A model generated the notes under the pieces. That model had not been told where the DNA came from, did no database searches, and saw only the letters and a program-made list of their open reading frames with translations. From Actinomycetota bacterium (GTDB lineage: Bacteria; Actinomycetota; Thermoleophilia; Solirubrobacterales; 70-9): DNA of 35,797 nt. This document shows positions 16,248-17,954 of the stretch, one piece after another (within the stretch, counting starts at the first letter, position 1; the number at the start of each line of letters is the position of its first letter). The stretch covers positions 1 through 35,797 of the forward strand of contig JAFDWB010000091.1 in NCBI GenBank assembly GCA_018268675.1, written 5' to 3'. The position numbers and the translations under genes are program-made.

Positions 16248-16305
16248 GTGAATTGATTCAAAGCGGGGGTGAATTGATCCAAAGCAGGCGTGATCTGACA
16301 CATTC
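16248..16305 (+). promoter_or_regulatory. 21-base tandem repeats plus GTGATCTGACACATTC motif
   Basis: Two copies of GTGAATTGATYCAAAGCRGG start at 16248 and 16269, exactly 21 bases apart, and the next 21-base step begins GTGATCTGACACATTC (16290-16305). Variants of the last motif occur at 19975-19990 and 25686-25701. The region is between the divergent SGNH hydrolase and thyX-like genes. Two readings fit: a multi-site operator, or the remnant end of an insertion sequence whose ends carry spaced transposase sites (IS21-like ends do this). No transposase is seen. Confidence 0.55.
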
Positions 16306-16352: not shown

Positions 16353-17954
16353 ATGCGCTACCCCGCCGAACGATTCACACCCGAGGAGGAGGCCCTCCTC
16401 GCGCCCCACTTCACCAATCTCGATCGGCCGGTCTTCGCTCTCGTCAACCTCCCCGAGACCGTCAAGGGCGCGCTTTTTGCCCGCTATTCGCGCTATTCCG
16501 GATCGGTCCGCCGCCTCTACCTCGACGAGTTCGCCGCCGACGCGCCCGCCGCCGGCCGCCCCTTCGACGCCGAGGAGGGGGCCCGCGCCGCGCAGCTCTA
16601 CGAGCGCGTCTTCGTCGGCTACGGAGACGACTCGATCGCCCAGGTCGGCGGCGCTCACGTCGCCTGCGAGTGGGTCTCGAACATCCTCACCAAGGTGCTC
16701 CAGCGCGGCCGCCTCGCCGCCTATCTCGAGCAGTCGACCCGCTACATCCCCTACGACAAAGCGCTGCCCGGCGGCGGCTACCGCTTCTACCGCGATGCCG
16801 AGCTCGGCCCCGAGTTCGTCGCCGCGATGGACGAGCTCTTCGTCATCTACTCGCGCTCGCTCGGCCGGGTCGAGGAGTGGGCGGCGCACCGCTGGCCACG
16901 CGGCGACGACGAGCCGGAGGCGGCCTGGCGGCGCTCGATCCGCGCCAAGGCGCTCGACCTCCTGCGCGGGCTCCTGCCCGCGGCGACGCTCAGCCACGTC
17001 GGCATCTACGCCTCCGGGCAGGCATACGAGCAGCTGCTGCTGCGGCTGATGGCCTCGCCGCTCCCCGAGGCGCGCGAGTTCGGCGCGATGATCCTCGCCG
17101 AGCTGCAGCAGGTGATGCCGAGCTTCGTCTCCCGGATCGAGCGCCCCGACCGCGGCGGCGAGTGGGTCTCCTACCTGCAGGCGCGCCGGGGCGGGACCGA
17201 GCGCTGGGTCGAGCGGCTCGGCCTCGGTCGCCGCGAGGAGGACGACGCGGCGCCCGCGGTCGAGCTCCTCCAGGTCGAGGGCAGCGAAACCGACCTCCTC
17301 GCCGCCTCCCTCTACGAGGCGGCAGCCGTCCCCGAGCCGGAGATCCGCGCCCGCGTCGAGGGCCTGGACGAGGACGAGCGGGGCGCGGTCCTGGCCGCGG
17401 TGGTCGGCGAGCGCACCAACCGCCGCCACCGCCCCGGACGCGGCTTCGAGGCCCTCCGCTACCGCTTCGAGATCGTCTCCGACTACGGCGCCTTCCGCGA
17501 CCTCCAGCGCCATCGCCTCCTGACCGTGCAGTGGCAACGGCTCGGGCCCGACCTCGGCGCCGGAGTCCCCGAGGAGGTGCGCGAAGCAGGGGTCGGCGGC
17601 GAATTCGAGCGGGCGCTGGAGATCTCCCGCGGCGAGTTCGAGCGGCTCGCCGCCCGCGGGCTCGACGAGCTCGCCCCCTACGCGCTCAGCCTCGCCTTCC
17701 GGATCCGCTACGTCCTCGACCTGAACGCGCGCGAGGCGATGCACCTGATCGAGCTGCGCTCCGGCCGCGAGGGGCACCCGACCTACCGCGCCGTCGCCCA
17801 GGCGATGCACGAGCAGATCGCCGCGGTCCATCCCGGCGTCGCCGCCGCGATGCGGTTCGTCGACGAGTCGACCGAGCCGCGCCTCGAGCGGATGATGAGC
17901 GAGATCCGCACGCACCGCAAACGGGTCGCGGCCGAGGCGCGATCGGGGGACTGA
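16353..17954 (+). CDS. Tandem-domain ThyX-like (FAD-dependent thymidylate synthase family) protein
   Basis: A 533-residue protein, about twice the length of a usual ThyX. The N-terminal half has GYGDDSIAQVGG and R118-G-R120 followed after seven residues by S128 in the block EQSTRYIPYD. The C-terminal half has R386-H-R388 but R396 where the signature serine belongs, then ELRSGREGHPTYR. ThyX makes dTMP from dUMP with methylene-tetrahydrofolate and FAD, through the motif RHR-x7-S. Here each half keeps only part of it: the histidine is missing in the first, the serine in the second. The protein may form a pseudo-tetramer with composite sites, or may have another flavin-dependent role. TACGAT at 16338-16343 could be a -10 box giving a very short leader. 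Confidence 0.82.
   Translation: MRYPAERFTPEEEALLAPHFTNLDRPVFALVNLPETVKGALFARYSRYSGSVRRLYLDEFAADAPAAGRPFDAEEGARAAQLYERVFVGYGDDSIAQVGGAHVACEWVSNILTKVLQRGRLAAYLEQSTRYIPYDKALPGGGYRFYRDAELGPEFVAAMDELFVIYSRSLGRVEEWAAHRWPRGDDEPEAAWRRSIRAKALDLLRGLLPAATLSHVGIYASGQAYEQLLLRLMASPLPEAREFGAMILAELQQVMPSFVSRIERPDRGGEWVSYLQARRGGTERWVERLGLGRREEDDAAPAVELLQVEGSETDLLAASLYEAAAVPEPEIRARVEGLDEDERGAVLAAVVGERTNRRHRPGRGFEALRYRFEIVSDYGAFRDLQRHRLLTVQWQRLGPDLGAGVPEEVREAGVGGEFERALEISRGEFERLAARGLDELAPYALSLAFRIRYVLDLNAREAMHLIELRSGREGHPTYRAVAQAMHEQIAAVHPGVAAAMRFVDESTEPRLERMMSEIRTHRKRVAAEARSGD

Follow-up and report, generated by a model that had tools for sequence, protein, structure and literature searches.

The gene at positions 16353 to 17954 of the window (the whole stretch of 35,797 nucleotides that was analysed) probably encodes a working flavin-dependent thymidylate synthase that arose by duplication and fusion of ThyX, and whose dimer would form a pseudo-tetramer in which two active sites are composite and the other two vestigial; we put the probability of this reading at about 0.8. 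The function of the tandem protein as a thymidylate synthase is well supported, if by indirect argument; catalysis, the dimer, and the division into two live and two dead sites are inferred. We read the protein as a new form of a known enzyme that is open to experiment, and not as an enzyme with a new job. The tandem arrangement is common in related bacteria and is not confined to one genome.

Canonical ThyX is a homotetramer in which the RHR motif with a dUMP-binding Arg, further FAD contacts, and a Ser/Arg/Tyr dUMP loop come from three different subunits (PMC6514825). In Mycobacterium tuberculosis ThyX, the site is composed of R95-H96-R97 and R199 (subunit A), S71 and R190 (subunit B), and R87, S105, R107, and Y108 (subunit C) (PMC6514825), and we use A, B, and C below for these three roles. 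The tandem gene has the following features, with residue equivalences given to the M. tuberculosis (Mtb) enzyme.

16353..17954, + strand: tandem ThyX gene, coding for 533 aa from an ATG start, with two Thy1 domains; stop codon included.
16353..17213, + strand: N-half (residues 1-287), ThyX domain with the dUMP/active-site loop; hhalign to canonical ThyX E 2e-13, alpha/beta order in the AlphaFold2 model.
16632..16634, + strand: S94, equivalent of Mtb Ser71 (FAD, role B); Ser in 107/107 N-halves and 0/107 C-halves.
16704..16745, + strand: R118-G-R-LAAYLEQ-S128-T-R130-Y131, a degenerate RHR that lacks its His, ahead of an intact E-x-S-x-R-Y dUMP loop; S128, R130, and Y131 in 107/107.
16965..16967, + strand: R205 in RxLLP, corresponding to Mtb R172; Arg in 107/107 N-halves and 1/107 C-halves.
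17214..17252, + strand: linker, residues about 288-300; reduced pLDDT between the two folds.
17253..17951, + strand: C-half (residues 301-533), ThyX domain with the FAD motif; hhalign to canonical ThyX E 1e-15, structural match to 3g4a.
17508..17516, + strand: R386-H387-R388, intact RHR FAD motif (role A); first R and H in 107/107.
17724..17759, + strand: N458-A-R460-EAMHLIEL-R469, second ThyX motif (Mtb N188, R190, R199); R469 in 107/107, R460 in 103/107.

Pfam Thy1 (PF02511) matched both halves above its cut-off in the genome search (43.4 and 59.3 bits), and the whole protein scored 104 bits over both domains against a cut-off of 24.8. With the NCBIfam thyX equivalog model (TIGR02170) it scored 46.5 bits and did not reach the cut-off of 87.9, a shortfall that is expected because the ThyX motifs are split between the halves; given this score, the protein should not be labelled "canonical ThyX". 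The profiles of the two halves barely matched each other (hhalign E 0.12). An AlphaFold2 model made with 91 sequences (whole-protein pLDDT 91, pTM 0.89) was used rather than one made with 27 close sequences, which gave a pLDDT of 59.8. The order of strands and helices in this model is alike in both halves, and residues 299-507, in the C-half, match Thermotoga maritima ThyX (3g4a) with a Z of 17.1 and an rmsd of 2.2 Å over 192 residues. The rows of the structural alignment were taken up by the C-half; for the N-half, a ThyX fold is suggested by its profile match (E 2e-13) and its strand and helix order. The neighbouring genes (glyoxalase-like, GDSL lipase, and transporter) give no pointer to nucleotide metabolism. 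Two copies of TTGATYCAAAG, 21 bp apart, lie at window positions 16253-16284, about 70-100 bp upstream of the start codon; the pair was considered as an operator and dropped, being absent upstream of the relatives checked.

The first-pass annotation had proposed that the RHR-x7-S signature of ThyX is divided, with a different part lost from each half, and this can be read directly in the 533-aa ORF: residues 118-128 (RGRLAAYLEQS) form RGR-x7-S in the N-half, and residues 386-396 (RHRLLTVQWQR) form RHR-x7-R in the C-half. The full motif is missing from either half, and all of its parts are present across the two. The losses extend further than had been noticed, as the C-half lacks the entire S-x-R-Y loop and not its Ser alone, and the N-half lacks the N-x-R of the second motif. 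The same split was fixed in all of 107 aligned tandem proteins, drawn from Actinomycetota, Bacteroidota, Bacillota plasmids, and one jumbo phage. Equivalences to Mtb residues were assigned with hhalign and MAFFT, the least certain being the N-half counterpart of R199 (R231; some proteins have H or K).

Among the 103 tandems from Actinomycetota and Bacteroidota, equivalents of S105, R107, Y108, and R172 were present in every N-half and in 9, 0, 0, and 1 C-halves, respectively. H96 and R190 were distributed the other way, each in 103 of 103 C-halves and in no N-half, where Gln takes the place of R190. Every C-half and 72 N-halves carried the R95 equivalent, whereas R97 was found in both halves and R87 in neither (N110 in the window protein). 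The conserved His53 of T. maritima (His75 of M. tuberculosis) was likewise missing from both halves in all 103 (V98 and A367 in the window protein), so some mechanistic detail must differ from canonical ThyX. Residues for all three subunit roles are present in the window protein: those of A in the C-half (R386, H387, R388, R469), those of C in the N-half (S128, R130, Y131), and those of B shared across the halves (S94 in the N-half, R460 in the C-half). As an independent check of this division, the tandem profile was run over genomes with canonical ThyX. In seven of them, one ORF of 224-250 aa matched in two pieces, first to the loop region of the N-half (about 69-167) and next to the C-half helix and N-x-R (about 406-497), so that what is conserved in one normal ThyX is distributed over the two tandem halves.

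The Bacillus/Paenibacillus and phage tandems follow this scheme with one exchange. In three Bacillus/Paenibacillus plasmid proteins, A-role residues occur solely in the C-half and B- and C-role residues solely in the N-half; in these three and in phage Tunturi_5, the R190 equivalent is in the N-half alone. Exactly one half carries this Arg in 107 of 107 proteins, which is consistent with either position serving, and its exchange between halves in different lineages complicates the architecture that we propose. The third RHR Arg of the C-half is kept in Actinomycetota, Bacteroidota, and Tunturi_5 members; in the Bacillus/Paenibacillus C-half, the alignment sets this Arg after an inserted Asn, and without the insertion the motif would read RHN.

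A ThyX homologue that has lost key canonical residues from each of its halves and scores under the NCBIfam equivalog cut-off could have another job (for example UMP or tRNA uracil methylase, or flavin reductase), with thymidylate coming from elsewhere. The family has members with different roles, in that PolB is a UMP/dUMP methylase according to the title of PDB 4p5b and Corynebacterium glutamicum ThyX is not required for thymidylate synthesis according to the title of PDB 3ge9. We nevertheless consider such a job quite improbable. The only Thy1 matches in the genome that carries the window were the two halves of the tandem ORF, and searches of that genome for a second ThyX, ThyA, or thymidine kinase gave no match. 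A thyA or second thyX was what the first-pass annotation had advised looking for, as part of the evidence (with a lack of dUMP/FAD binding) that would argue against a synthase role, and neither was found. Because this genome (4.2 Mb) is 96.65% complete, a gene may have been missed, though 61 genomes (60 relatives and the genome itself) agree. Thy1 was found in 58 of the 61, as a tandem in 54 (four seen in part), as canonical ThyX in 3, and as a canonical ThyX with an intein-like interruption in one (G057). Tandem and canonical ThyX occurred together in none of the 61 genomes, and ThyA likewise in none of them.

The exchange of one form for the other extends across the class. A sample of 150 genomes, sorted by hand on match number, E-value, and frame length, comprised 61 with tandem ThyX, 73 with canonical ThyX, and 16 without Thy1. 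G127, counted among the 61 tandem genomes, looks mixed, with an additional canonical copy. Full-length ThyA was found in 8 of the 16 genomes without Thy1, a weak ThyA-like match in 4, and nothing in the remaining 4. Even within a single genus (g33), species G159 and G173 are canonical while G171 is tandem. Use of ThyX displaces ThyA and lessens the need for much dihydrofolate reductase (DHFR) (PMC1971073). Of the 16 genomes without Thy1 in the class sample, just the 8 with full-length ThyA had DHFR; the 73 with canonical ThyX all lacked it, and 1 of the 61 tandem genomes had a borderline match at 25.2 bits. In a phylum sample of 246 genomes, tandem ThyX (called at E below 1e-100) was present in 71 and full-length ThyA (E below 1e-70) in 29, all of them with DHFR and none with a tandem. 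Pieces of ThyA were found in three tandem genomes (G295, G352, G373); two of these, G295 and G352, are the sole tandem genomes of the phylum sample with DHFR above the cut-off, in each case sharing a contig with the ThyA piece. In displacing ThyA and in its DHFR pattern, the tandem behaves as a ThyX. The swap of tandem for canonical ThyX across 150 genomes and the near absence of DHFR from tandem genomes, as from canonical ones, weigh against another job, and the new flavin-linked job that had been offered as an alternative is unlikely for the same reasons.

Some genomes in these sets have synthase genes of other kinds. The interrupted gene of G057 (L008, G057:C8:620592-623975) is a canonical thyX broken by about 360 codons right before THELVRHR; the insertion ends VVSGN|T and looks like an intein. 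In G160, G172, and G176 the Thy1 match is split, and these genes may resemble this case. In several class and phylum genomes (G064, G074, G079, G089, and others), ThyX is missing and ThyA gives no more than a weak match (35-47 bits, on ORFs of about 220-300 aa); their synthase is possibly a divergent or archaeal-type ThyA. G143, which is 100% complete, has two tandem thyX genes.

Duplicated enzymes often retain one live copy, and one half of the protein might accordingly be catalytic alone, with the other a structural or regulatory remnant. We regard this as likewise quite improbable because the residue set of studied ThyX enzymes is complete in neither half, because purifying selection acts on the two to a similar degree (7 comparisons with relatives gave a dN/dS of about 0.14-0.36, and the more distant L028 up to 0.42), and because each half retains a different invariant subset in the 107 proteins. 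Although long overlapping frames occupy both strands at 16353-17954, as is usual for such GC-rich DNA, a pseudogene, assembly artefact, or chance ORF is refuted by the conservation of this two-domain ORF, which recurs in about 54 of the 61 genomes and in 71 of the 246 from the phylum, with dN/dS far below 1 and Pfam matches in frame.

The suggestion that the two halves complement each other is strongly supported by the division of residues according to subunit role in 107 proteins, in what is the only recognisable thymidylate synthase of a genome with no detected thymidine kinase. For a fused ThyX that works as a thymidylate synthase, we propose fixed roles, the C-half acting as A and the N-half as C. 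The RHR of the C-half would hold FAD, with R386 and R469 contacting dUMP, and S128, R130, and a Tyr131 lid of the N-half would close over the reacting atoms. Two chains would make a pseudo-tetramer with two complete composite sites, and its remaining two positions (RGR, no S-x-R-Y) would be vestigial and dead. Role B may come from the N-half (S94, Q223), as the invariant Ser71 equivalent and the plasmid and phage lineages suggest, or from the C-half, as R460 suggests in the lineage of the window protein. The enzyme would convert dUMP and methylene-THF, with FAD, to dTMP and release THF; with THF as the product, DHFR would be unneeded at the dTMP step. We lean toward the stricter form of this proposal, an obligately asymmetric ThyX in which each chain joins two individually dead, specialised copies, the dimer has exactly two live and two vestigial sites, His53 has been dispensed with, and large parts of Actinomycetota rely on the protein as their sole thymidylate synthase.

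Compared with canonical ThyX/FDTS (T. maritima TM0449, M. tuberculosis ThyX), the tandem shares the fold of the C-half, the RHR, S-x-R-Y, and N-x-R...R motifs, and the niche without ThyA or DHFR. It differs in having two diverged domains per chain with the motifs divided between them and His53 lost from both, and in a predicted two active sites per assembly instead of four. ThyA with DHFR fills the same metabolic role through an unrelated fold, and full-length ThyA was found solely in genomes without the tandem. The ThyX of most Chloroflexi has a domain duplication and was called uncharacterised (Valas and Bourne 2009, PMC3224940). That protein also occurs in ThyX-only genomes and is probably of the same type; PMC3224940 gives no residue partition, distribution, or mechanism. 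The thymidylate synthase of Microcystis phage Ma-LMM01 (A0A7D4, predicted structure) aligns with the tandem model at 21% identity and is probably also two-domain because the alignment spans 520 columns. Our literature search, made mostly outside subscription journals, found no description of a divided ThyX active site.

ThyX supplies a DNA building block by an essential route that humans lack, and it is a target for antibiotics. Subunit roles that are locked in separate halves can each be mutated alone, which is hard to do in a homotetramer, and, if the asymmetric reading is true, the tandem is a natural separation-of-roles form of a drug-target enzyme that is widespread in Actinomycetota. It would explain thymidylate supply in lineages without ThyA and without a motif-complete ThyX. 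It is also a warning that motif-based annotation or a single-domain model may misjudge an essential enzyme, as the NCBIfam score illustrates.

Tandem relatives are found on Euzebya, Miltoncostaea, Parabacteroides, Bacillus, and Paenibacillus plasmids, where they have about 516-565 aa and are annotated "FAD-dependent thymidylate synthase", and in phage Tunturi_5, where the annotation is "thymidylate synthase". Scans of viral contigs with the window protein, A1, and the phage protein as queries found no relatives. The plasmid and Tunturi_5 copies are 23-46% identical to the window protein and share its two-domain architecture and partition; unlike it, members of the Bacillus group have His53 and the Arg190 equivalent in their N-half, and their C-half reads RHN if aligned without the insertion. 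A tree built from 23 N-halves, 23 C-halves, and 12 canonical sequences placed the N-halves in one clade (SH-aLRT 99) and the C-halves in another (97), with the Bacillus plasmid, Parabacteroides, and phage copies included. This topology fits one ancient ThyX duplication behind all tandems, the deep order being unsure from long branches. The phage copy adjoins a dCMP deaminase gene, with a dUTPase gene near, and a plasmid copy lies near dcd. On Parabacteroides distasonis plasmid 45 (L145), a 278 kb record with house-keeping-type genes, a dihydrofolate reductase gene lies about 3 kb away from the tandem thyX.
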